From Craspedostauros australis (lineage: Eukaryota > Bacillariophyta > Bacillariophyceae > Mastogloiales > Achnanthaceae), in the NCBI GenBank assembly GCA_026770025.1, contig JAMXDE010000017.1, positions 496,001 to 560,000 of the forward strand: DNA of 64,000 nucleotides, in the 5' to 3' direction. The translations under genes were made by a program, and so were the position numbers. Numbering within the stretch: the stretch's first letter is position 1; every line of letters starts with the position of its first letter. The notes beneath the pieces were generated by a model. It searched no databases. It was not told the DNA's origin and was given only the letters and a program-made list of their open reading frames with translations. Of this stretch, positions 8,356-43,140 are shown piece by piece.

Positions 8356-8359
8356 ATAA
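8356..8359. repeat. Left target-site duplication ATAA
   Basis: ATAA directly precedes the left terminal inverted repeat and recurs directly after the right one at 14418-14421, as a transposon target duplication would. Confidence 0.6.
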
Positions 8360-8513
8360 GAGCCCCTCGAGTGAGTCGACCAACACTTTGAAATGGACAT
8401 TCTAACTTTTCATCTGCGATATCCAAACCAAGCACATATTCGTAATACCTATAGTCTCTTTATACATAATTAACCGTTACATTTTTTGTTAGATCCTTAT
8501 TTTAAGTTTTATG
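8360..8513 (+). repeat. Left terminal inverted repeat
   Basis: The outer 35 nt are a perfect inverted match to 14383-14417; inner blocks match with gaps. Probably the transposase-binding end. Confidence 0.85.
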
Positions 8514-8858
8514 GAGTGATCTATGTGTGCATTGCAGTCGCGTTGATCCAACAGCACAAAACCCGTTGTTGTTGGCAGAAGGTTCTATCATGTTCTCATG
8601 TATTTATCGTGAGGTGATCAGTCACGGACTTGCTTCCGAAGGTGTCAGTCGTTTGGTACGCGTTAATTACACGTTAGCATGTGGCACCTGATTCCACATT
8701 CTGCTCGTCACAAAGCACATGACACAAAACACATCACACAAAACACATCATCGCCATCATTTCGCAAATTTGTGCCATGCTTCGGCTCCATTCACAACTT
8801 GCCTCGCCAATGCCCTGCACACTCGCCCTTTCGCTCCATGCTAGTTCTCCTCCTCCTG

Positions 8859-8920
<62 letters not shown>

Positions 8921-8937
8921 TGTTGTTGTTGTTGTTG
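8859..8937 (+). repeat. (GTA)n followed by (TTG)n microsatellite
   Basis: About 20 copies of GTA followed by about six copies of TTG, in the leader between the left TIR and the transposase start. It keeps the upstream frame open as a poly-Val tract, which is not credible protein. Confidence 0.95.
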
Positions 8938-9050
8938 TCAACGAATGGTCGACCATTCATCGTTTGCTCTCCTTCCTCACTTCATCTCAACCTGTGCTGT
9001 TCATCACATCCAACCAGCTAACAACCATACTCAACACCAACAACTACATC

Positions 9051-12000
9051 ATGCCTATCTCGACCCCTACCAAGGCCCTCTCCAAGGATGCTAACCCCTC
9101 TGCCCGTAAGAAACCGCGTTCTGCTCGCCTTGCATCTGCTCCTCCTGCCGACTCCAAGGGAAACTTGCTCCCTACCGCGGAGCAACTGTTGCCTGACAAG
9201 CCATTCGCTGCGTTGAGGAAGCCAACCACCATCACGCGAGTGATCGATGTGAAGCCGATGCTCGCAGCGGATGGCAGCCTCGTCCCGAACGGTACGCATG
9301 CGCACGCTCGCGTGCTGCATGTGTTCGTTCACATCCTCGATGACAACGGAGGCGTCTTCGACGACTCCAACGTCAACGTGCGATCCGAGGGACGAGGTGT
9401 CGGCGATGGAACAGTGGTGAGCGTTGTCGTGAACGCGCCACCCCTGCCTGCTGCAGCTGATGTTGCTCCGCCTGTCGAGCCTACCCCGCCAGCGAGGCTT
9501 CCCCGGCGCTGCAATACTGTTGTTGCTGGGGGCTACGCAGATGCCTCTGGCGACAGCGACAGCACCTACGACGACAACGGCAAGGAGGTACGGGCGCGTG
9601 CCAGCAGGAACAGGAGAGGAGGTCAGTTCGGGTACAATCTGGAAGAGGCGGGAAACTGGAGGCGCGATGCCATCGTTCGTGCGATGGCAGCTCTTGGATC
9701 TAACCTAGATCCAAAACTGTTGCAGCTGATGCCGAAAAAAGGGTTCGTCCTCACAGGCAGCCACGATCGGACCATCTGGAGCTCTGTGAAACAGATGTGG
9801 AATGTTGTCTCATCCGCGCTTTGGACAGTGCTGCTGCCAGAAGAGGACGTGCCAACTCGTCAGATGGAACAGGTGGTTGCATTCGTGCGCGGCAACGTGG
9901 ATCTTCCGCCAATCATGTTGGCGCCCAATCTGTACACCCTGGGCTTGCTCGGAGAAACTCCATCATCCCGCGCGGTGAGAGCTGCTTTGGCCATGTCTGC
10001 GCCACATGCACTGTGTACTTCCATCCTCGAAAAGCGCGCGCAAGAACTGTCCGACGAACAGAAGACTCGTATGCTTCCCAAACGCGACATCATCACACAT
10101 AGCCAGGTATGCACCTTGCGTCGCTACTACGACATGTTGAGCCATGGCGAAACCATCTCACCGCCAGTTCTTCAGTATCGCGTGCGTGCTTGCGACCTGT
10201 CTGGCGTGGTGTCCTTCCTCATGACAACAACAACATACAAGGCAGGGTTAAGTCACAAGGTACAGTATGGTGGAATTGAATTTGAGAATGTCCCGGTGTT
10301 CGATCGTGGCAGCACCACCATCCAAGAATTATTCGACATGTACTCTTCCACTACCAATACTCCGGTTGGGATGCCTGCTTTCACCACCATGACCCACCTC
10401 CTCACACGCAAAAGCAAGATCAAGACAGGCCTCTCTTCCTTCGAAAGCTACTTCTGGATGGCAACGGGGAAACTCAAACAGGCAATTTCGCGCCTAGTAG
10501 ACCTACTGAAGGCTAAGTATGGAGCAGATGGGGAGGAGCAAAATGATGCCGCTGTGGATGCCAATGACGAGTATCAGCACCAGAACAATGAGCCTGATGA
10601 TGTCATCACACAGCATGTGCGCACAGCCGATTCTCTCTTGCATGCACTCGAACTGCTTGTTGTGTTCCTCAAATGGGAGTTCACCGCCTCTCACATGCAG
10701 CTTCAGTGTGACGATCCAATGCACTCGGCCACGTTCGCTCTCACCACCAAAAAGGAGAAGAAGAAGGCATCAACCACATCGACCAATCAACGCAAAGCAC
10801 GAACCAACAAACACAAGCGCAAGAAGAACACCGCTGTCACAAATGACACTTCTCCCACCACTGCAAGCGAACAACCACGTAAAGTATGCAACCGTTGTGG
10901 AGCAGCAATGCGATTTGTGAATGATCGTTTTGTTCCTTTTGTCAAAATGCTTAAGGACAACGAACTCGCAGAACACAATGACGAATTGCAATCAATGCTT
11001 GCAGCGGCCCCGGGATTCGCCAACGAAATTGTTAACTACATGGCTCACAAAGTGCGTGCCAAAGTGCAATTCGGACAAATCGCCTTTTATCAATCCCAGC
11101 TCAATGAAAAGCCTGAAAGAGCCTATGTGGTACTCGACCATAAGCAAAAAATTCTACCGACAGGCCAAGGCGAAGCCCAACAAGAATATTGGGGGAAGAA
11201 GGGGATGTCACTGCTTGGGGCAATGGTCATCACGTGTCGCAACGACATTTTTACTTATCGGTTCATCGACATTGTGGTCGAGGGAAGACCGACGCAAGAC
11301 ACACTTCAAGTTGGTGGACTGCTGGAGATCGTGCAAAAAAAGGTCAAAGACATTCACCCATCCGTGACTGAAATCATCCTACAGAGCGATAACGCGTGTT
11401 GCTTTGCCAGTCACGAGCACATCGCGCTCATCACATCCAAACTCAACAAGAACCTTGTGACACGAAACGCCGCCAAAATCATCGCCTGGATCTACACGGA
11501 GGCCCAAACTGGTAAGAGCATGCTGGACACCCACTTCGCGTACATCACCCGTGTACTGCGAAAATACGTGCAAAGTGGCAAGGACATCAAGACCCCTTTC
11601 CAAGTCTTCCTCGCGCTCCAAGCCGGTAACATCGCAGGTACGACAACGGTACTTGTCAACGCGGCGCTCCTGGCAGGCAACATCACCACGCTGCCTGGTG
11701 CACCAAAACGACGATTCCGCGCAAGTGGGCAACAGGTACGTATGACTCACGAGGTGAAGTACGACGATGACCAGGCGCGGTTGGTGGCTGCATCTGGAAT
11801 CACGGAAGATGTTGTGGTGAAGAGCACCGAATGGGGAGGGTGGATCATCAACGAGTTGGGTGTCATCGCGGACAAAACATTCACGTCCGACAAGCTGCCG
11901 ATCACGTCCGAATCATTCAGGAAGACGGACAAGACGCGAAAACTCGGGCGCACAGCGGCAGAGAGCAAGGGGCTTGCGTTCGGCAAGGCCATCGCAGACG

Positions 12001-12566
12001 GACAACAACATCTACCATCCGATCACACCACAGCGCTACAAGACCAGACCGCAGAAACCGAACACCCACCACTCGCAGTACAAGGCTGGGCCAGCAAAAC
12101 AGCACGGACCAATGCCAAACTACCGGACTACATTGCGGACAAATTGAAGGGCATCTGTGAAGTGTCCGCGAAGGACCCGAAAAACAGACCGTCCGAACAC
12201 GAAGCACACGAGCAATTGATGGACAGTGAAAAAGCCAAAACTGACTGGTACGTACAACTGCACGCTAACCCGATGCGTGTGAAAGCTTCACTGTCAGCAG
12301 CGTACAACGCCAAACAACGCAAGGACAAGAAGCAAGCTGCTCTCAAGGCGGAAACCAACACCAACACCAACCCAACAAGCACAGCAACAGCATCTGTAAT
12401 TGTGGCAACCTCCAATGCACCAGCTGCAACAGAGGAGGAACGAATTGAAGAGGAGTTGCAGAAAGAGGAAGAGGAATTGGACCATCAGATGTGGTGTGAT
12501 GCTCACACCATGAAGGCGAACACAGAAAGTGAGGCTGTGTTGGATGATGAGACGGAAATTTTGTGA
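9051..12566 (+). CDS. Putative DDE-type transposase of the 6-kb TIR element (1171 aa)
   Basis: The ATG at 9051 follows a CA-rich leader. The same frame is open upstream to 8679, but only through a microsatellite, so 9051 is preferred. The first 400 residues are basic and low in complexity. A helical middle region follows, then a short zinc-ribbon-like site (CNRCGAAM, about 613). The likely catalytic core has Asp in VVLDHKQK (about 696) with GKKGMSLLGAMV after it, Asp in LQSDNACC (about 780) and Glu in TEAQTGK (about 817), with an Asp nine residues on. This D..D..E order, and 'SDN-C' plus 'E-Q-GK' words, resemble uncharacterised transposase-like proteins of protists and animals; that resemblance is from memory and not checked. 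The C-terminus is a charged, Thr/Asn/Glu-rich tail. No intron is needed. Confidence 0.75.
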   Translation: MPISTPTKALSKDANPSARKKPRSARLASAPPADSKGNLLPTAEQLLPDKPFAALRKPTTITRVIDVKPMLAADGSLVPNGTHAHARVLHVFVHILDDNGGVFDDSNVNVRSEGRGVGDGTVVSVVVNAPPLPAAADVAPPVEPTPPARLPRRCNTVVAGGYADASGDSDSTYDDNGKEVRARASRNRRGGQFGYNLEEAGNWRRDAIVRAMAALGSNLDPKLLQLMPKKGFVLTGSHDRTIWSSVKQMWNVVSSALWTVLLPEEDVPTRQMEQVVAFVRGNVDLPPIMLAPNLYTLGLLGETPSSRAVRAALAMSAPHALCTSILEKRAQELSDEQKTRMLPKRDIITHSQVCTLRRYYDMLSHGETISPPVLQYRVRACDLSGVVSFLMTTTTYKAGLSHKVQYGGIEFENVPVFDRGSTTIQELFDMYSSTTNTPVGMPAFTTMTHLLTRKSKIKTGLSSFESYFWMATGKLKQAISRLVDLLKAKYGADGEEQNDAAVDANDEYQHQNNEPDDVITQHVRTADSLLHALELLVVFLKWEFTASHMQLQCDDPMHSATFALTTKKEKKKASTTSTNQRKARTNKHKRKKNTAVTNDTSPTTASEQPRKVCNRCGAAMRFVNDRFVPFVKMLKDNELAEHNDELQSMLAAAPGFANEIVNYMAHKVRAKVQFGQIAFYQSQLNEKPERAYVVLDHKQKILPTGQGEAQQEYWGKKGMSLLGAMVITCRNDIFTYRFIDIVVEGRPTQDTLQVGGLLEIVQKKVKDIHPSVTEIILQSDNACCFASHEHIALITSKLNKNLVTRNAAKIIAWIYTEAQTGKSMLDTHFAYITRVLRKYVQSGKDIKTPFQVFLALQAGNIAGTTTVLVNAALLAGNITTLPGAPKRRFRASGQQVRMTHEVKYDDDQARLVAASGITEDVVVKSTEWGGWIINELGVIADKTFTSDKLPITSESFRKTDKTRKLGRTAAESKGLAFGKAIADGQQHLPSDHTTALQDQTAETEHPPLAVQGWASKTARTNAKLPDYIADKLKGICEVSAKDPKNRPSEHEAHEQLMDSEKAKTDWYVQLHANPMRVKASLSAAYNAKQRKDKKQAALKAETNTNTNPTSTATASVIVATSNAPAATEEERIEEELQKEEEELDHQMWCDAHTMKANTESEAVLDDETEIL

Positions 12567-14261
12567 TGGCTGTGCGTCACCGCGATAACACTAGTTGTGG
12601 AGTTTTGTGGGGGCAGACCATGCTACTAAAACGAGTCTAGAGGCCATCCAAAAAGCACATCCAATATCTGCTTGTCATGCTATATCTCAACAACACATTG
12701 TCTACAATTAAATCTAAACAGTGCATTCATACACCTGACTAGTGTTTATACAGAATATCGAAGTTAAATTGACAAAGAAATTATTTTTAGTGTCATGTTG
12801 GTCCATCACACAGTTGTGTGGTGGATTCACAAAATTCTCGACCAAGCAATGTTGCCCTCCAATCAGCACCCATGATCATCATCATCATCCTGGTATTTTG
12901 ATAAACTGCGCACCACAATCGCTCTGTATACCCCCCATCTACCCACTCCATGAAGGATACAACGTTTTGGCCACATTGCATGCCCCAAAGTGTCCATACA
13001 CTGAAAAAGAGTGATTCCAAAAAACGATTTTCAAGCCGGATGCGGTATGGATACGGATCCATACCTCATGCACATGACCCTTTCAGCCCCTCCACGTGCC
13101 CCTCGTGCATTCCCACACTCCCTGGTGACATGATGATGCATCCAGAGGGGGATGGGCATCGATGGTCTTGATGGTACACCTCCATTTGGTGATGCCATCT
13201 CTTTTCGTGGCACCCCACCAAAACATGACCTGTCTGTACTCATTCGAGGCCACAGCCTCTTCCAGACAATATCTGCGGCGCGAACTTCGCGACGTGCATC
13301 TTCCGTTGGTGCCGCACGCATCTTGCATGGGCGACTTGGCGATTGGGTGGCTTGATGATGCTGCCTGTCACAGCCAAAGCCACACCATGGGAACCCCCGC
13401 GATACACCGCCAAAACTCTTGCCCTCCACTGTTTCCTCTGCGCGGACACCTTCTCGGTCGTCCCCGAACCTCAAACTTCGTGTGAATCTTGGTCTTGGCC
13501 TCCTGGAGCCATCCTGCCCATCCATAGGCGTTGGGGTGGGCTGTGGATGGAGTACACCGGCCATATGCAACGAGGCAATCTGGCGCGAAATTGTGACGTT
13601 TGATCTGGGGCCTGCGACGGCCCCAAATCAAGCGCTCTCGCGGCCCCCTCTCGTCCACCCACCAACGGCTGCATCGCGGTGACGGCGATGTGCTTGGATT
13701 TGTCATTGGACCGCTGGTTGGTGCGGCGCAGTGATTGCCGTTGGACAGCCATTGTGGCGTTTTTTGGTGTTCCGCCATTGTCATGTTGTTGTTTTTTGGA
13801 GTCTGGCACTCTCAACCAGTCGGACATACTGGGGGATAAGGTAATTGCAAACACCTAACCAAAATGCACGAAAGAAGCATGACACAAAACACTTCCGGAG
13901 TACCAATGCAACTCGACCATTCCGTCACGACGAAACGTCGCTGATGCTGCTTCACATCGTGCTGTGATTGGTGGCTCATGACGCAGCAGCCAGTCTAGTG
14001 ACGTAGATGACGGATCAGACAGGCACAGGGTAGAATGGATCCAAACGCGCACTCGCCGCTTCTCCCAAAACTCTACAACTAGCGCTATCGTGGACGGGGT
14101 GTTGGATGGTCTGATCGGAACACCTCAAAAAGAGACTAAACAATTCAAAATGGGAACAACGTCGCTGAAACGAAGAACAGCAAAGGGTTAAATTGGATCG
14201 ATGTAGTCGTAGGCGAAAGGCTGAAACCCGAGAGAGATCGAAAATTGCTCATATCCATCGG
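12567..14261. other. Right arm of the TIR transposon, no certain gene
   Basis: This 1.7 kb inside the element carries no ORF I can assign. A minus-strand frame beginning at an ATG at 13827 (MSDWLRVPDSKKQQHDNGG) reads about 119 codons with hydrophilic, coding-like composition. A different minus frame is open across 13570-13031. Neither matches a family I know. They might be exons of a second, convergent gene of the element, or chance. Confidence 0.35.
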
Positions 14262-14417
14262 TCCGTAAAACTTAAAATAGGATCTAACTCAAAAATGTAA
14301 TGGTTAATTATTTGTATTAGACCTACAGGGATTACGAATATGTGCTTGGTTTGGACAACGGAGACAAAAATCCAAGAGGTCTATTTCAAAGTGTTGGTCG
14401 ACTCACTCGAGGGGCTC
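14262..14417 (-). repeat. Right terminal inverted repeat
   Basis: Inverted copy of 8360-8513; the outermost 35 nt (14383-14417) are identical to the left end. Confidence 0.85.
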
Positions 14418-14421
14418 ATAA
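14418..14421. repeat. Right target-site duplication ATAA
   Basis: Second copy of the ATAA found immediately left of the left TIR at 8356-8359. Confidence 0.6.
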
Positions 14422-34661: not shown

Positions 34662-37600
34662 TCACGAAAGTCGTCGTCGCCGGGCCCTGCGACCTGTCGC
34701 ATCCTGCCTTGCTCCGCCGCCTTTCCGCTTGTGATGTCGTGTGGTGTGGCCGAGTGCACGTCGCCGCAACCCTGCTTGCCTGGCCGCCCGTACATGCCGC
34801 ACCCACAACACCTGGTTCTCCGCCGATTGCGCTCGTACCGCTGCCTCCGTTGTGTGAGTCAGCAGGCGAACGTCATCGCCACCGATCCCTTGTACTCCTT
34901 GTCGCCACTCTTCTCGAACTGCTATCGCGGCCTCCTGCCACATCATAGCCGTCGTGGCTGCCTGTTCGCTGTCATGGAGCACCTTGTTGCGTGCCATCCA
35001 CGCCTTCCATCGCACTTCCCACAAACCCACCATTGCTCTTGCGATCCAATTTGCCGGGCGTCCCGGTTGGCCACTGATCTCCATTGTGCTTTCCTGGATT
35101 CGTTGCCACCTCGCGGACCATCGGCCTCGTACCATCATTCCCCACCCTATTTCTTGCTGTTCTGCCATCGCCTGTTGCAGCTGATAACCCGACTCCATTT
35201 GGACTTCCCGTCCTTCACTCCACGCCCAGACTTGCTTCACCATTGCTCTAACCATCAGGCCGTCTCCTCGTGCTGCCATCATCTCAGTTTCCCACTCTTT
35301 CATCGCCGCTCGTCGCACTGACACCGCCAACGGATGCTGGCACTGCATGACATGCTCCGTGGTCTCCTCCTGGTCTTTGCATATTGGACACCTGTCGCTG
35401 CTCCAGAACTTCCACTTCCGCATGTTGCGCCCGACTGGCCCAAAACTGCACGCATGCTTCGCCACCCATTTCCGGCGTGCTGGCTTCAGGTAGGCCATCG
35501 CAATCGCAGCCGCTGTGACATCCACCTTCTTCGCTTCGCCCTTCCGGATCCGGCCCACCGTGCGCTGCCACTGCACTGTCCTTTGTCCTTGGACATACTT
35601 GCGAATCATCGCCGTGGCACTCGTGCAGACCTTCCTGTCGTCGAGCCATATCGCCCACTCGGCCTCGTACCCCTCTTCGTCGGCATACTCTATATCAACC
35701 GAATGTGCTGCCCCTGCCGCCTTGTCAACGTCGTCATTCCATTCTGCAAACTCGTCCCTCGCCACTCCTCGGTCTCGCTCCAGCTGATGGCCGTACACGT
35801 GCCGATACTCCAGAGTCACCGTCAGCCGCCTTTGAATTCGTCGTATCTCGCGAATGACGTCAAAGTGCTGCACTGCCGTGCTGACGTCCCGCGTGTACTG
35901 CACCGCGTGGATTCCAGCCATCTTATTGTCACAAGCGACCACGATGACCTTCCCCGTCACGGCGTGCTTCATGTCGTGGCGTTGAATGATGTCTTCCACG
36001 TTGCGGAGAGCCTGCAAAATGCCACCAAGTTCTGCGCGATAGGCGCTCTGCACTTCGGTCCGGCCCGGCACTGGTCCTGTTGCTGACACTCTGCCTTTCC
36101 GCCGCCCTCGCACGTTGAGCGAGTACGCCGCGGTACTCCTGCCGTTCTTAAACGACCCGTCGGTGCTCACCACTGCCTTCCCTTGTACCACTGCCTCCAG
36201 CCACAACTTCTCCGCATGCCTTGAATTCGTACGGCTTTTTGTCCTGTGCTTCCGCACTCTTCCCCCGATTCCTACCACTCGTAAGCAACCTCCTCGCTCT
36301 CGCACGTGGACCCCTCTCCAATCTGTCGGCGGGTCCTTCGTCACATTCGTCGTACCTGCGTACTCTTCCATGCCCGGCACCGCTCCTGCTTTAGCAACCC
36401 ATTGTCTCCATTCTCGCACGTTCTCTCGAAGCCATATCACCTTGCGATTGTCGCTCATCATGGCGCTGACTTGGTCCACGTCCCATGCCGTACTCGTCCG
36501 TGCTGTCTTCGCCACTTTTCGTAACGCCTGCCTCCACAGCGCCCAGTCCTTCTTGGGGACGTTGCCCTGCCTTGGCCAGCTGACATGTTGCCGTCCTCGC
36601 CATGTGCCTTCATCGCAGGTCCTTTGGTGCGCCGCTACTCCACCGTGCTTCTCGTCCACCACATCTGCCACGCTGACCACCTTCATGATCATTCGGCATC
36701 TGTTCAGTCGAGATCGCTGGGCCCGGCTGTATCCTGCTGCTTGGAATGCCACCGATAGCCACTCATCCTTGTCGTGGACGAGTGCTGCTGTCGCGGTCTT
36801 CTCTCGGATCCGGATATTGCATTCATTGGCCTCTCGCCACACCGTTTTCACCCAGCATGCCGTAGCCAGGAATTCCCATTCGTTGTAGTTGACTTCGAAC
36901 ATGGACGTTCCGGCCCCGACCTCCGTCTTCATCGCTTGTATGCATCCCCGCATCAGTTTGCCTGTCATGGTCGCTCTGTCGCCGTGCTCGAGCATCATCT
37001 TCATATGTTCCACCACTTGTGTGGTGTGAAGCTCGTGAAGGTTCGCCCCTAGCCACTCGTCCGTCGCGTAGGCCATCTCCCTTGGAAACCCCCGGTTGAG
37101 ACCAATCTTTGACATCATCGTCTTCCAGACTGGCTTCATAATCCTGTTGCATTGTTCCCTCGATAGTTGTGCCACTGGCAGCACATATTCCAGCTTTTTC
37201 ATCAGAACTGTCCGTATCGCCGTCTCCGCATCTTCCTGTCGCATACGCCACGACTTCACATTCTCGACCCACTTCTCCGCCTTGCTTCTTAATGTGGCCT
37301 CTATCGCCGACCCGTTGCCATCGGGCGCGAGTTTCACGCCTAATGTTTCGAATGCTTGCTCGCTTCCGCTTCTTGGCATCGCTTGCGGTACTCCCGTAGT
37401 CCCCTTCATCATCAGCTTGGCTGGCGTCTCTGCGTCCGTCGCATATCGCCACGTGCCGTCGCTGTTCCACTTGAAATCGACAGCCCACCACATACATTTC
37501 TCCACTACCAGTGCGCCGCCTGTCGCTCTTGCCAGGCTCTCCCACGATTGTACGCTCCGCTGCATGCGCTGGATCGTTTGTTGTACGTCCTCGCCTTCCC

Positions 37601-40421
37601 GTGCGTTTACCACCAAATCCGTGTCATCCACAAATGCATACCCCACCATCTCCACGTCTTCTCCGCTCGCCGCTGTTCGGAAGTTGGCTGTGTGCCCTTC
37701 TCGTTTCATGATTTCCAGTACTGGCGATGAGATCACTGCCCATATCACCGGCCCTGCTCCATTCCCTTGGTAAATACCCTGCATTGGTACCACCCATCGC
37801 TTGCCTCCGTACGTGAGTCGAGATTCGCCGTACGCAGTCCTGATGTAGTGCTCAAGTTGCTGGAGTGTGCTGAACATACACACCACTTCCGATTGCGCTA
37901 TCCCTTGCCGTTGCAGTCCCAATGATGCCACCGTGTGCACGATTCGATCGTAGCAGCTCTTGAGATCATTGGTGCAAAGCACTGTTGGCACTCGCACCTG
38001 TCTGGCCCAGTCCAACGTGAGCTGCTTGTTCAGCGCGTGGTCGATTGCTCGATGCCGTTTGCGGCTGCCATATTGTTCCTCAGCAAATCCGTTTTGTTGT
38101 TCCGCCTGATGCGCAGCCTTGCGCCCGATGGCCTTGTTCGCAAAATTAAAATCGGCTTCGAATAGCACGATGGTCCTCAGCTTGTCGACTCTGAAGCTGT
38201 TCGCTTTCTTCATCAGCTCCACATCTGTGCCTTGTCGCCATCGCTGGTACGAGTAGCCGCTTACCATCGCGATCGAAGTCATGCTTGCTTCAAACTCCGA
38301 ATTCCTCCGATGGTGCGCTATAGCTTTGAAATGGCCAAAATGCAGCCCCGATGGTCCTGCCGACGTGTCCTCCTTGGCTCTTTTCCATCCTTGTTGGAAC
38401 TCCTTCGTTGTCATTCCTGCTGGTATGCTCCGGCTTGCCACCGATTTCAGCCCTTGTAGGAGCTTCGCGGCGCCTTCATCAACCCATGGTCGTGGTGCGT
38501 AGCTTCCGTTGAGCGTTTGCTCCGCCGCTTCGGTCACCCCGAGATACCCGAATTCTCTCGCCAGCTGGCCGTGCATGAACGGCGTGTTCTCGGTTTGCCG
38601 AAATCGTTTCTTGTTTTCTTCCATGCATCCTTTCTCGATGTCTTCTTTGCTGGTCCGTTCCACCCACTGCCCATTCCCGTCCGGTGCTATCACCATGGAT
38701 ATACCTGCCGTTGCGTTTTCGCCTGTGGCCATCCGTATCCTCCGATATGTTGCTCGCACTCTCTCCTTCATCCTCAGCTGACGTAGTTGCTGCGATGTCG
38801 CTTTTCCAACCTCTCTTTCTTCTCTTCCTCTGTTGTTGCTTCGCTGCTGTTCCCCTCTTCGTCTCATTTCCTCCCCGCCTCTCGCTGCCGCTAGTCCTTC
38901 TAACCAGTTCTCTCTCGCTTTCGTCGCTCTTGTTCTGAACTGCTTGAGGTCCCCAAACGCCGATTCCTGTTCCTTTGCTACCTCCTCGTTGGAACATCTC
39001 ATCAGTTCTTGTACCTTCCGCGTTTCCCCTGCTCTCTTCGCCAGTCTCACGATGGTCTTCGACGAGATGTTGGCTCCTCGTTGCTTTCTCACCACGTTGT
39101 TCCACAGCCCGATGTTGGCTTCAATCCGTTTGTACTCCTTCGAGTACGGTATGCCTCCCATCCTTAATCTGCGGCAAGCCTTGTCGGCTTTCCATATTCC
39201 TTCCACGCGAATTCTGTCAAGTTTCTCTGCCTCCTTTTCCATTTTTGTCGTCCATTCTTCTGATGCCGCTTGTTCCAGCCGAAACGCTCTTGCCCTTGCT
39301 TTGTGTTGTTTCAAGTGCGCTTCGTAGGCGTCGTTGAACTTCTGTACGATCCTTGGGTCTTCCGTCTTCACTCTCCTCGACACCGCCTTGCGCAAGTTGG
39401 GCATTGATTGCCCGAGCACCGCGATCATGCTGACGTCGATCCACAGGCATCGGTGGTCGGCTTGCCTCATTTGTATCCCCTCGTCCCATTCGCTCGCTCC
39501 TGCCCCTTCGATCCGAACTCCTGCTGTAGCGAAGATTCCGTCGATAGGCACTTTTCCTAGTCGATGCGTTGGCAATCGACTGACTTCGTCACCTGCGCAT
39601 TCCATCGTGTTGGTTAGCCCTGTGGCCTCTTGGAATTGCCGCATTGTGGCCGAATTCGTGTCTTCGTTGCAGTCCATTGCCACGATTACATGGTCGCCTT
39701 CCGCTCTCCACGCCTGAATCGCTTTCTGAAGGTCCTCTATCATCGCCGCTCGAGGCTCCTTGTCCATCTTCTTCTCATTGAAGTACCGCCGCTGTTGTGC
39801 GTGTGTGTTCAAGAATCCCTTGCTTCGTGGTCTGCACGGTCTATACGCTGTTACCACTCGGAGCGTTTGCTGATTTGCTCCGCGGTATCGTTGCCACACC
39901 CATCGCCCCAACTTGGTTGGGTCTTCGCCTTGTCCCATGATGCGGATTGCCGCTTGGAATCTGCTGATCATTGCCACTCCTCCCCACTGTTTGCTTTGCG
40001 TGGGTTCGTTGGTCGTGTTATTCGCCGTCTTCGCCACTGCCGTTCCTGTTGGCCACCATTCCTGTATTCGCCCTTTGAGTGTGTGCTCTGTTGATGCCGT
40101 CCTCCAGTCCACATTCACCTCCGTGATCCCGAATACATCGAATTCGCCTTCGTTCATCCACCTCTTCAATCCTTCGTCGACTACTCCTGGTCTCCTTCCG
40201 AGTCCTCCGAAGTTCTGCAACCCTATCCTCAGTTGCCCCGTTCGCTTCCTCAGCATTCTCCTCCTCACCCGTGTCATCCTTCCCCCTTCGTTCGTATCCT
40301 GTCGTCTGCTGCTGTTGGGTTGTTGCGGTATAACCTCCCGATCCGCAGGCGCTTGTTGTGGGCTCTGAGTCGTTCGTCGTGCTGCCACCGACTGTTGCTC
40401 TTGCCCTTCTGGTCTAACCAT
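34662..40421 (-). CDS. LINE ORF2: APE endonuclease, reverse transcriptase, RNase H, zinc knuckle (1919 aa)
   Basis: The ATG at 40421-40419 overlaps the ORF1 stop (ATGGTTAG), so translation by termination-reinitiation is likely, as known for SART-type LINEs. Domains by residue from this ATG: APE-like endonuclease at about 65-330 (IGLQNFGG, ITEVN, MDCNED at about 249-254, QADHRCLWID); reverse transcriptase at about 720-1060 with TNDLKSCYD and the active-site YAFVDDTDL (about 930); RNase H at about 1410-1560 with all carboxylates visible (STDGSF, YRAELGG, ACDNK, YGHQ and NDDVDKAAG); and C-terminal CPICKDQEETTEHVMQC, a CCHC-like knuckle. The frame is open 21 codons further upstream but only from GTG. 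The protein is longer than most LINE polymerases. Confidence 0.92.
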   Translation of the reverse strand: MVRPEGQEQQSVAARRTTQSPQQAPADREVIPQQPNSSRRQDTNEGGRMTRVRRRMLRKRTGQLRIGLQNFGGLGRRPGVVDEGLKRWMNEGEFDVFGITEVNVDWRTASTEHTLKGRIQEWWPTGTAVAKTANNTTNEPTQSKQWGGVAMISRFQAAIRIMGQGEDPTKLGRWVWQRYRGANQQTLRVVTAYRPCRPRSKGFLNTHAQQRRYFNEKKMDKEPRAAMIEDLQKAIQAWRAEGDHVIVAMDCNEDTNSATMRQFQEATGLTNTMECAGDEVSRLPTHRLGKVPIDGIFATAGVRIEGAGASEWDEGIQMRQADHRCLWIDVSMIAVLGQSMPNLRKAVSRRVKTEDPRIVQKFNDAYEAHLKQHKARARAFRLEQAASEEWTTKMEKEAEKLDRIRVEGIWKADKACRRLRMGGIPYSKEYKRIEANIGLWNNVVRKQRGANISSKTIVRLAKRAGETRKVQELMRCSNEEVAKEQESAFGDLKQFRTRATKARENWLEGLAAARGGEEMRRRGEQQRSNNRGREEREVGKATSQQLRQLRMKERVRATYRRIRMATGENATAGISMVIAPDGNGQWVERTSKEDIEKGCMEENKKRFRQTENTPFMHGQLAREFGYLGVTEAAEQTLNGSYAPRPWVDEGAAKLLQGLKSVASRSIPAGMTTKEFQQGWKRAKEDTSAGPSGLHFGHFKAIAHHRRNSEFEASMTSIAMVSGYSYQRWRQGTDVELMKKANSFRVDKLRTIVLFEADFNFANKAIGRKAAHQAEQQNGFAEEQYGSRKRHRAIDHALNKQLTLDWARQVRVPTVLCTNDLKSCYDRIVHTVASLGLQRQGIAQSEVVCMFSTLQQLEHYIRTAYGESRLTYGGKRWVVPMQGIYQGNGAGPVIWAVISSPVLEIMKREGHTANFRTAASGEDVEMVGYAFVDDTDLVVNAREGEDVQQTIQRMQRSVQSWESLARATGGALVVEKCMWWAVDFKWNSDGTWRYATDAETPAKLMMKGTTGVPQAMPRSGSEQAFETLGVKLAPDGNGSAIEATLRSKAEKWVENVKSWRMRQEDAETAIRTVLMKKLEYVLPVAQLSREQCNRIMKPVWKTMMSKIGLNRGFPREMAYATDEWLGANLHELHTTQVVEHMKMMLEHGDRATMTGKLMRGCIQAMKTEVGAGTSMFEVNYNEWEFLATACWVKTVWREANECNIRIREKTATAALVHDKDEWLSVAFQAAGYSRAQRSRLNRCRMIMKVVSVADVVDEKHGGVAAHQRTCDEGTWRGRQHVSWPRQGNVPKKDWALWRQALRKVAKTARTSTAWDVDQVSAMMSDNRKVIWLRENVREWRQWVAKAGAVPGMEEYAGTTNVTKDPPTDWRGVHVRERGGCLRVVGIGGRVRKHRTKSRTNSRHAEKLWLEAVVQGKAVVSTDGSFKNGRSTAAYSLNVRGRRKGRVSATGPVPGRTEVQSAYRAELGGILQALRNVEDIIQRHDMKHAVTGKVIVVACDNKMAGIHAVQYTRDVSTAVQHFDVIREIRRIQRRLTVTLEYRHVYGHQLERDRGVARDEFAEWNDDVDKAAGAAHSVDIEYADEEGYEAEWAIWLDDRKVCTSATAMIRKYVQGQRTVQWQRTVGRIRKGEAKKVDVTAAAIAMAYLKPARRKWVAKHACSFGPVGRNMRKWKFWSSDRCPICKDQEETTEHVMQCQHPLAVSVRRAAMKEWETEMMAARGDGLMVRAMVKQVWAWSEGREVQMESGYQLQQAMAEQQEIGWGMMVRGRWSARWQRIQESTMEISGQPGRPANWIARAMVGLWEVRWKAWMARNKVLHDSEQAATTAMMWQEAAIAVREEWRQGVQGIGGDDVRLLTHTTEAAVRAQSAENQVLWVRHVRAARQAGLRRRALGHTTRHHKRKGGGARQDATGRRARRRRLS

Positions 40422-43140
40422 TCGCCGAGTCCCCTCGCGGTTCCTCGGCTCGTTGCGTCTCGTGCGCCTCTTCCCGGTCGTCACCCGTTCCGATGGTTTG
40501 TGTTGTGCACTGGACCGTCTGTGGCCTTACTCCAATGTTTTTTCGCGGCTTTTCTGCCGCCTTGAGCGCCTCGTTCTCTGCCTTCGTGGTTACCACCAGC
40601 TGTTTCAGTTCTTCCATTTGCTGTTGCATGGCGGCCATCATCGCTCGTGTAGTTCCGGTTGTTCGCCCGGTACTTCCCGACAATGTCGATGTCACTGATC
40701 CCTGTGCCTGCGCTTCCAATATCTTCCCCATCTGCTCTTGAAGTACCGCCATCTTCTCCTTCTGTGTTCCCGACGTGCTTCTGCTCGCCCCTGTGATCGT
40801 TGATCCCGTCGACCCTTCTTCTTCTCTCGCTTGCTGGGCCGCTCGCCTCTTTTCGCTTCGTCTCTCCCGAACTTTTCTCCATGCGCTCGTGTCTCTCATC
40901 GATGGGATTGTATCGTCGTCTCCGTAATCCTTCTCTCTTCTGATTGGAACTCCTCTTTCCTCTTCCTCGTCCTCGTCGTCTTCACCTTCTTCTTTGGTCG
41001 TTTGGAAATGCATGTCCTCGTCGACCTCCATGGCTGCTTCCACTTCCTTGTCTTTTTCGGATATCACTCTTTTCGTGGCCTCATCCCATTTCATCGTCTT
41101 TGCTTCTACCCGTGCCATGGACGTAAACAGTCGTTCCACGTCCTCTCCGTAGTCGGCTGTCAACTTGACCAGCAACCCTTTGACCACCATTCTTGCTTCC
41201 GCTGTCTTCTCTGGGTGGAATTGTAGCACGTAGCCGTTGCCCCTCCATTGCTTGTCTATCGATGTGAAGAGCGGCGTCTTTTCGTTGCCGGTAGTGGACT
41301 TGATCCGCATCACCATCTCTCTGAGTGTGAGATGGGTGCCGTCTGGAATCTCTTGCAAGCACTCCGGGATGATGTCGTAGGTCGTCATCGCTACTGCGTG
41401 TAGGCACCACTCCATTTGGCGTTCGCGTAGCTCAAACCATCCTTTCCTCATGTCTGTGTTGACAATACCGGATAATGGCGTGATGATACGCATTCTCACT
41501 CCCAATGGAAACTTCTTCGACTTCGTGCTGTAGTACACTTCCAGTACTTTGGCCACTAGCGCTCGATCCTCCGTGCTTGATTCCACATGAAGCGCCCTTG
41601 GATCTTTCTTTGTGTCCCTGTTGGGATCGTATTTTTCTCCGTCTGCTATCCGCTTCCATGTGATTGCTACCTGTGTCTTGGCTAGCTTTGTGAGTTCCGC
41701 CTCCAGTGCTTCTGCGTCGATCTGTCGGGTGGAGTATAGGAGCCAACCCAGCGTTGTTGTAGAGTGAGCCTGTATCTTCGCCACTTCGAACCTTCCTCCG
41801 ATGTGTTGGAAGTAGTCCGTCAGCTCTCCTGTGATTTTGCTGATAGGTCCTTTCGCTTCGATCTTGACTTTCAGGTACCCTTTCTCTTTCGCCGCTTTGT
41901 AGATTGGCCGCACTCCTTTGAAGAACCTTTTCAAGTTAGTCATATCTGTTGGGAATGACTCCATTGCGTGCACAATCGTTTGGTCTTCGTAAGGGTTCCA
42001 AGGCAGCAGTTTTGCTGTCGCGTTCACCCGTTGGATTGATCGTAGGAACTCTTTGCATGATGCAATAGCTGCGTCGATCGCCGTGCCTGCGTCGTTGGCG
42101 CCATCTCCTCCTTCGATCATCATCTGTACGTCGCAGTAGCGTGTCTCAATTGCTTCGCTTTCGCGTGCTCGGCTCCTTCCGATCCCGCTCTCGTTGCTTC
42201 CAGCTTGTGTTTCGTCATCACAATCCATTGGTGGGTGGATGTTGTCCCGCCCGATTTCTCCGATTGCCTGTGGTGTCGCTGGTATTGCGTTCGTCGTCTT
42301 TTCCTTGTCCTCCAGTGCTTTCTCCTGCGTCTTTTCCGCCTCTGGTTCTTCATCCCGCAGGTCTGTTCGTTTGGCCGGCAGCTCCACCGCTGTTGAATGT
42401 CGCGGGCTTCTTTCCGTTCTTTTCTTGCTGCCTCCCTGATTCGGTGTCTCTTCTCCCGTCTCCGCTGCCGTGTTGTCCCCTCCGGTTCCTTCCTCCCACG
42501 TGTCCGCCCATTCGTTCTCTTCGTCGCTGCTCGTGTCCTCCCCCCCTTTCGCTGCTTTTGTTTCGTTCGTTCCTCCGCTCGTCCCGTCACGTCGTTGCCC
42601 TGTCTCTTCTCCATCTTGCTTTCCATTGTCCTTATCTTCGTTGCCCTTCGTTGCCTTGATCTCTTTCATCTTGCCCCACTTCTTGCTCAACGCCTTGCGT
42701 ATTGCCTCCGTTGCTGCTCCAACGCTTCGTTGCCCCGCATTCGTTGTCTGTACTGTGATGTTGTCGTTTTCGATGCACTGTGTGCACACCACTGGGAATC
42801 CTCTTGGTGTCACCAAGCCTTCTTCTGGCTTGATCCATGCTCTGCATTCCCTGTGCGCCGGTACGCCGCACATAATACATCGCACAGCTGCTGCTGCCTG
42901 TCCTCTTCCCTTGCAGTACTTGCCTGCGGCGCATTCTACCTTGTGAATGCCTCGTCCTTGCTTTCCATCTTTCTCGCCCTGTTGGCCCCCGTTAGTCGTC
43001 GCGTCTTGCCCTGTCTTCTCCTCTACTCCTCCTGGTCTGTTGTTCTTCGCCTTGTTGCTGTTGATGCCGCCTCTGACATACGCTTCCATCGGCATTTGGC
43101 CCGTTGGACGCGTCATCTTGCTGCTCCTCGTCGTCGTCAT
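40414..43140 (-). CDS. LINE ORF1: PHD-like zinc-finger protein (908 aa)
   Basis: The ATG at 43140 begins MTTTRSSKMTRP. A Cys/His cluster near the N-terminus (CAAGKYC, CIMCGVPAHREC, VVCTQC) looks like a PHD- or RING-type cross-brace finger, as in the ORF1 proteins of some algal and protist LINEs. Then come a long Lys/Glu/Gly-rich disordered part, a folded middle (about 360-680) without a family I can name, and a charged C-terminus with a predicted coiled coil (KAEMAALQEQMG-like and MAAMQQQMEELKQLVVTT) that could mediate multimerisation of the RNP. It overlaps ORF2 by 8 nt at the stop/start junction. Function inferred: RNA binding and particle assembly for retrotransposition. Confidence 0.85.
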   Translation of the reverse strand: MTTTRSSKMTRPTGQMPMEAYVRGGINSNKAKNNRPGGVEEKTGQDATTNGGQQGEKDGKQGRGIHKVECAAGKYCKGRGQAAAAVRCIMCGVPAHRECRAWIKPEEGLVTPRGFPVVCTQCIENDNITVQTTNAGQRSVGAATEAIRKALSKKWGKMKEIKATKGNEDKDNGKQDGEETGQRRDGTSGGTNETKAAKGGEDTSSDEENEWADTWEEGTGGDNTAAETGEETPNQGGSKKRTERSPRHSTAVELPAKRTDLRDEEPEAEKTQEKALEDKEKTTNAIPATPQAIGEIGRDNIHPPMDCDDETQAGSNESGIGRSRARESEAIETRYCDVQMMIEGGDGANDAGTAIDAAIASCKEFLRSIQRVNATAKLLPWNPYEDQTIVHAMESFPTDMTNLKRFFKGVRPIYKAAKEKGYLKVKIEAKGPISKITGELTDYFQHIGGRFEVAKIQAHSTTTLGWLLYSTRQIDAEALEAELTKLAKTQVAITWKRIADGEKYDPNRDTKKDPRALHVESSTEDRALVAKVLEVYYSTKSKKFPLGVRMRIITPLSGIVNTDMRKGWFELRERQMEWCLHAVAMTTYDIIPECLQEIPDGTHLTLREMVMRIKSTTGNEKTPLFTSIDKQWRGNGYVLQFHPEKTAEARMVVKGLLVKLTADYGEDVERLFTSMARVEAKTMKWDEATKRVISEKDKEVEAAMEVDEDMHFQTTKEEGEDDEDEEEERGVPIRREKDYGDDDTIPSMRDTSAWRKVRERRSEKRRAAQQAREEEGSTGSTITGASRSTSGTQKEKMAVLQEQMGKILEAQAQGSVTSTLSGSTGRTTGTTRAMMAAMQQQMEELKQLVVTTKAENEALKAAEKPRKNIGVRPQTVQCTTQTIGTGDDREEAHETQRAEEPRGDSANG

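Follow-up and report, generated by a model that had tools for sequence, protein, structure and literature searches.

A family of terminal-inverted-repeat DNA transposons with NTAN target duplications and a putative 1171-residue DDE/D-type transposase in Craspedostauros australis

The window analysed here, a stretch of 64,000 nucleotides from Craspedostauros australis, contains at positions 8360 to 14417 a genuine copy of a transposon. The element is most likely an autonomous DNA transposon with terminal inverted repeats (TIRs) that was mobile very recently, and this copy can perhaps still move. The observations as a whole are very probably explained by an autonomous TIR element moved by its own transposase, a protein of 1171 amino acids belonging to the DDE/D type. 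This transposase displays no match in the libraries searched, and the nearest published description that we found is that of the Sola superfamily.

Architecture of the element and its terminal repeats

The features of the element are given below with their positions in the window, their strand and the basis of each assignment.

8356..8359, unstranded: target site duplication, left copy, ATAA (sequence read)
8360..8531, + strand: left TIR of about 172 nt, the first 35 nt perfect (end-to-end comparison)
8360..8381, + strand: conserved end block 1, GAGCC-(5 variable)-AGTGAGTCGACC (24 ends of 12 copies aligned)
8435..8448, + strand: conserved end block 2, CATATTCGTAATAC (24 ends of 12 copies aligned)
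8499..8515, + strand: conserved end block 3, ATTTTAAGTTTTATGGA (24 ends of 12 copies aligned)
8858..8938, unstranded: (TAG)n(TTG)n compound microsatellite preceding the gene (sequence and comparison of copies)
9051..12566, + strand: putative transposase gene, 1171 aa, single exon (ORF without stop, codon periodicity)
12567..14245, unstranded: probably non-coding 3' region (strong codon periodicity lacking, slight unevenness at 13160-13759)
14246..14417, - strand: right TIR (end-to-end comparison)
14418..14421, unstranded: target site duplication, right copy, ATAA (sequence read)

The initial annotation had described perfect ends of 35 nt followed by block-wise similarity, and this description was borne out: the left and right ends are identical over 35 nt, then similar in blocks, and they pair over 172 nt at 82%. 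The ATAA duplication that it had reported is likewise present at 8356-8359 and 14418-14421. Self-comparison of the window resolves the inverted arms into two segments, 8357-8486 with 14291-14420 (130 nt, 82%) and 8498-8531 with 14246-14279 (34 nt, 79%). A 26-nt stretch of the end, searched with up to 3 mismatches, occurs at each of the two ends and nowhere else in the 64 kb (mean of 0.00 occurrences in 100 shuffles of the window).

From the genome, 33 stretches were fetched (L001-L033). When the 24 ends of 12 copies are aligned, three blocks prove to be conserved. Counted from the left end of the window copy, they occupy positions 1-22, about 76-89 and about 140-156, and they are likely to represent binding sites of the transposase. 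The outermost GAGCC is common to the copies closest to the window copy, and GACCC is found in L024, L027 and L028. In L024, which stands outside the alignment of 24 ends, the GACCC ends are accompanied by an altered order of bases within block 1. The end bases 6 to 10 (8365-8369 in the window) differ between subfamilies, as seen in L005, L006, L008, L010, L012 and L011-L017, and they are sometimes unequal at the two ends of a single copy, for example in L005, L010 and L012.

Target sites

The target sites were read in 28 of the 33 stretches, after leaving out L009, which another copy interrupts, L021-L023, which are pieces surrounding a fragment, and L025, whose ends were not recognised. All 28 readable copies are flanked by perfect 4-bp duplications, every one of them NTAN: ATAG in seven copies, ATAA, ATAC and CTAT in four each, ATAT in three, CTAG in two, and TTAA, TTAT, TTAG and GTAG in one each. 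The flanks of these 28 copies display no strong preference beyond the four duplicated bases. A pattern search for ends preceded by TA recovered at least 115 ends, of which 100 were listed, and none in the reversed control; since this search itself required the TA, only the directly read flanks count for the definition of the target.

Joining the flanks of a copy after removal of one duplication allowed empty sites to be recognised. The 200 nt of joined flanks of L033 align in full with L030, without a gap and at 97%. Those of L006 have an empty-site match of 154 nt at 79%, and those of L007 a match of 117 nt at 97% that is in phase with a 20-nt tandem repeat. These matches support insertion into a site that already existed, with exactly 4 bp being duplicated. 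The perfect duplications in 28 of 28 readable copies, together with the empty-site matches, uphold the earlier proposal of a mobile TIR element.

Copies in the genome and age of the family

The genome was searched for copies over 74.8 Mb in 90 contigs, and the family counts are lower bounds. Many further copies with the same ends were found, as the initial annotation had suggested should be checked. The DNA search detected at least 69 matching pieces; among the matches listed, 20 span the entire element, or miss at most 10 bases per end, with 86-100% identity. The protein search detected at least 39 full-length matches (84-100% identity), and 28 of 39 are free of stops among the matches listed. 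A search with a divergent N-terminus, which displays 33.9% identity to the window protein over 285 residues, recovered at least 137 matches. For the core, 150 of 363 candidates were scored; all 150 matched, and 92 of them fall in frames that run for at least 1150 aa without a stop. L024 and L025 encode proteins with 44.7% identity to the window protein. L024 measures 4865 bp and has GACCC ends, an ATAG duplication and 157-nt arms that are 97% complementary.

The window copy differs from L003 only by the length of the microsatellite, and from L002 by the length of the microsatellite and one extra A in an A-run near 9735. This extra A, which may stem from an error of assembly, disrupts the reading frame. 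The (TAG)n(TTG)n tract at 8858-8938 varies in length by up to 24 bases among otherwise identical copies. The window copy, L002 and L003 are localized on separate contigs and have dissimilar duplications. Near-identity on different contigs therefore indicates very recent movement, which agrees with the ongoing mobility that had been raised as a possibility. Several other copies contain stops or frame breaks, so that intact and decayed copies coexist. Nested insertions were also observed, with family members inside other members of the same family (L009, L033).

The family is large, with many intact genes and copies that differ only in repeat length, which makes movement directly testable; for experiment, the recent expansion and its many intact genes are the most useful feature.

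The gene and its product

The 1171-codon ORF that had been reported as intact extends from 9051 to 12566 with no stop. Its reading frame is already open from 8679. Between about 9260 and 12560 the codon periodicity is strong, and at 8960-9259, where the gene begins, it is weaker; within the element, the strong excess at the third position is confined to 9051-12566. The regions 8360-8959 and 12560-14417 have no periodicity of the gene's strength, with a slight unevenness at 13160-13759. An N-terminal extension from 8679 was considered and discarded because 8360-8959 lacks strong periodicity. An ATG is present at the homologous start in 13 of 13 aligned copies, each row of this alignment having been begun by hand at that ATG.

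The dN/dS ratio of the full gene is 0.20-0.40 (12 comparisons, each against the window copy, synonymous change being saturated for L024 and L025), and the value of the core is below that of the full gene in 12 of 12 comparisons against the window copy. Judged from these substitution ratios, the 1171-residue protein is under purifying selection. Relatives of five ORFs of the 3' region (89-138 and 179 aa) occur in other copies, partly open and partly interrupted by stops, and a small second product from this region appears unlikely. Since strong codon periodicity is found only within 9051-12566, we consider that the element carries a single gene.

The N-termini (9051-9120 in the window; L007, L011, L033) carry either MPISTPTK or MFPSAAAK blocks, which are spread over otherwise differing subfamilies. 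Such block-like sharing suggests recombination between copies.

The putative catalytic core

The features assigned to the protein upstream of and within its core are the following.

10692..10898, + strand: putative zinc-binding segment before the core, H548, C553, H558, C613 and C616 (invariant in 13 of 13 rows)
11118..11690, + strand: putative catalytic core, residues 690-880 (conservation across cores)
11136-11138, + strand: D696 (invariant in 33 of 33 cores)
11388-11390, + strand: D780 (kept in 29 of 33 cores)
11499-11501, + strand: E817, in TEAQTGK (invariant in 33 of 33 cores)
11526-11528, + strand: D826, in the stretch SMLDTHFAYI (invariant in 33 of 33 cores)

The 33 cores consist of the 13 aligned rows and of 20 of the 150 scored places, chosen for variety. 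The segment containing H548, C553, H558, C613 and C616 may possibly bind zinc. Within the core, the hydrophobic stretches follow the order AYVVLD, GMSLLGAMVITC, TYRFIDIVV, a helix-like stretch, EIILQSD, a second helix-like stretch, KIIAWIYTE and then SMLDTHFAYITRVLRKYV. With the strands and helices labelled from our reading of the sequence, this order resembles that of an RNase-H fold in which strands 1 and 4 are each followed by an acid and the third acid sits on the helix that follows strand 5. This RNase-H-like reading points to D826 rather than E817 as the third acid, and we favour the triad D696/D780/D826 (D-83-D-45-D) over one with the equally invariant E817. In the D..D..E pattern initially proposed, the third acid is E817; this place is contested by D826, which is as invariant and, on our reading, better placed for the RNase-H helix, so that the triad may be DDD. 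AlphaFold models of the full protein and of the core alone have mean pLDDT values of 35.8 and 41.9, too low for a fold to be read.

D780 is replaced by N in four of the 33 cores (L092, L099, L101 and L102). Three of these four cores are situated in frames of 1185-1281 aa. The copies with this replacement possibly encode inactive transposases, with elements that would still be moved in trans.

Searches for relatives of the protein

None of the libraries searched (Pfam, NCBIfam, PDB and PHROGs) names the protein, in answer to the profile check proposed at the outset. The window protein has no match in Pfam, NCBIfam or PDB at E values up to 10, and in PHROGs it recovers a single family of unknown function at E 0.19. 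The 13 aligned rows recovered seven Pfam families, with one or two members each (best E 0.11) and no transposase among them; the profile of the 13-row alignment has no match in PDB. No relative of the protein was detected in phages and plasmids at E values up to 1. Viral contigs searched by protein and by alignment gave 4 and 54 pattern stretches, respectively, with no relative, and prokaryote genomes searched by alignment gave 307 stretches, again with no relative. With motif patterns, viral contigs yielded 0 and 4 stretches and prokaryote genomes 46, and the profile search detected a relative in none of these 50 loci. The related motif TETQDGK has no match in the organism's own genome.

The protein was also compared with transposases of the integrase type: of 21 rve loci retrieved, 10 were picked by hand and 7 were used, and the profile contains few effective sequences. 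The score of 18.8 was reached by 24 of 300 column shuffles, with 12.1 in the reversed control, and is not significant. In this non-significant comparison, D780 is aligned onto the second acid of the integrases.

Relationship to known superfamilies

Quite possibly, and slightly short of an even chance, the element is a divergent branch of the Sola superfamily; this would change its classification only, the mechanism being the one preferred below. Sola elements are outlined in PMC10741241 as having a 4-bp target site duplication (TSD), a DDD transposase, a size of mostly 2-9 kb, TIRs of 11-1124 bp and very variable ends, and the account of Sola2 in PMC3627910 gives AT-rich 4-bp TSDs. As far as these two descriptions extend, Sola1, Sola2 and Sola3 share with the window element the 4-bp duplication, the organization as a TIR element of several kb and the possible DDD acids: here the TSD is of 4 bp in 28 of 28 copies, the element measures about 6 kb, its TIRs about 172 nt, and D826 is invariant. 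The shared features are however coarse, and the likeness to Sola is one of description, drawn from the published outline. Moreover, the strict TA centre found in the NTAN targets of all 28 copies is narrower than an AT-rich target, and D826 and E817 are both candidates for the third acid.

It is also conceivable, with somewhat less confidence, that the element represents a separate DDE/D superfamily that has not yet been named. Such a eukaryotic superfamily would tentatively be defined by NTAN duplications, GAGCC or GACCC ends, three TIR blocks, a transposase of about 1170 aa with a D-83-D-45-D triad, and recent expansion in this genome. In its favour, nothing above noise was found in Pfam, NCBIfam or PDB, the target is an NTAN tetranucleotide, and none of the 13 rows has a C/DxxH motif between D780 and D826. 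A search of a limited collection of literature found no paper joining NTAN, target site duplication and transposase. Against it, the missing match carries little weight, the libraries having been compared without eukaryotic reference transposases. For a brown alga, PMC12477816 reports Sola-1 and Sola-2 together with 51 families of DNA transposons left unclassified, which suggests that unassigned families are not rare in protist genomes. If the family is a new superfamily or a deep branch of Sola, it would provide material for structure determination and for assignment of the triad.

An aberrant member of piggyBac, Kolobok, Ginger, Chapaev, Academ or Tc1/mariner appears improbable. Chapaev and Academ have 4-bp or TA-centred targets. 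TTAA falls within NTAN, and a central TA, found in every target read here, is likewise required by Tc1/mariner. Kolobok and piggyBac, for which PMC9587614 gives TTAA duplications of 4 bp, thus resemble the window element by a 4-bp duplication with a TA centre. Unlike them, the family has TTAA in only one of 28 copies, and since the target is not bound to TTAA it is not a standard piggyBac or Kolobok. The duplication is of 4 bp with varied outer bases (28 of 28 copies) rather than the 2-bp TA, which sets the family apart from a standard Tc1/mariner. For none of these three superfamilies is there a Pfam transposase match. According to PMC9587614 and PMC3706591, a C/DxxH motif between the second D and the last acid is present in hAT, P, MuDR, Kolobok and Dada; all 13 rows lack it between D780 and D826, and, given the present assignment of the acids, this argues that the protein is not of this kind.

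The ends of Ginger elements start with TG. The window element resembles Ginger and the integrase type (rve) in its second-acid motif, ILQSDNACCFASHEH, which aligns with LFHSDQGCQYTADRF in the comparison that was not significant, and differs from them by ends starting with GAGCC instead of TG; no rve match to the window protein or to the 13 aligned rows was found in Pfam. The NTAN rule may also link the users of TTAA (piggyBac, Kolobok) and of TA (mariner) through a shared flexible central TA step.

Proposed mechanism of transposition

In the mechanism that we prefer, the 1171-residue protein, in its putative role of DDE/D-type transposase, would recognise the ends of about 172 nt, probably through the three conserved blocks. 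It would then pair both ends and cut at the outer GAGCC. Catalysis would be carried out by an RNase-H fold with the triad D696, D780 and D826, or less likely with E817. The cut ends would be joined, at a 4-bp stagger, to a target centred on TA, and host repair would then generate the NTAN duplication. The route would presumably be of the cut-and-paste type.

That the protein is instead a passenger, the ends being moved in trans by an unrelated transposase, is very improbable: its role as transposase is one that we infer and D780 is N in four of the 33 cores, but its gene is the sole clearly coding stretch of the element and appears to be under purifying selection, and in the 44.7%-identical L024 the protein accompanies related ends and a 4-bp duplication of the same type (no ends were found for L025, a relative of L024).

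Neighbourhood of the element

Nearby genes in the window encode an HSF-type factor and a thioredoxin with a presequence that looks plastid-like. The host may, on this view, be a stramenopile with plastids. A further probable mobile element is also present.

34662-43140, - strand: two large ORFs, probable non-LTR retrotransposon (reverse transcriptase match just below the curated cut-off)
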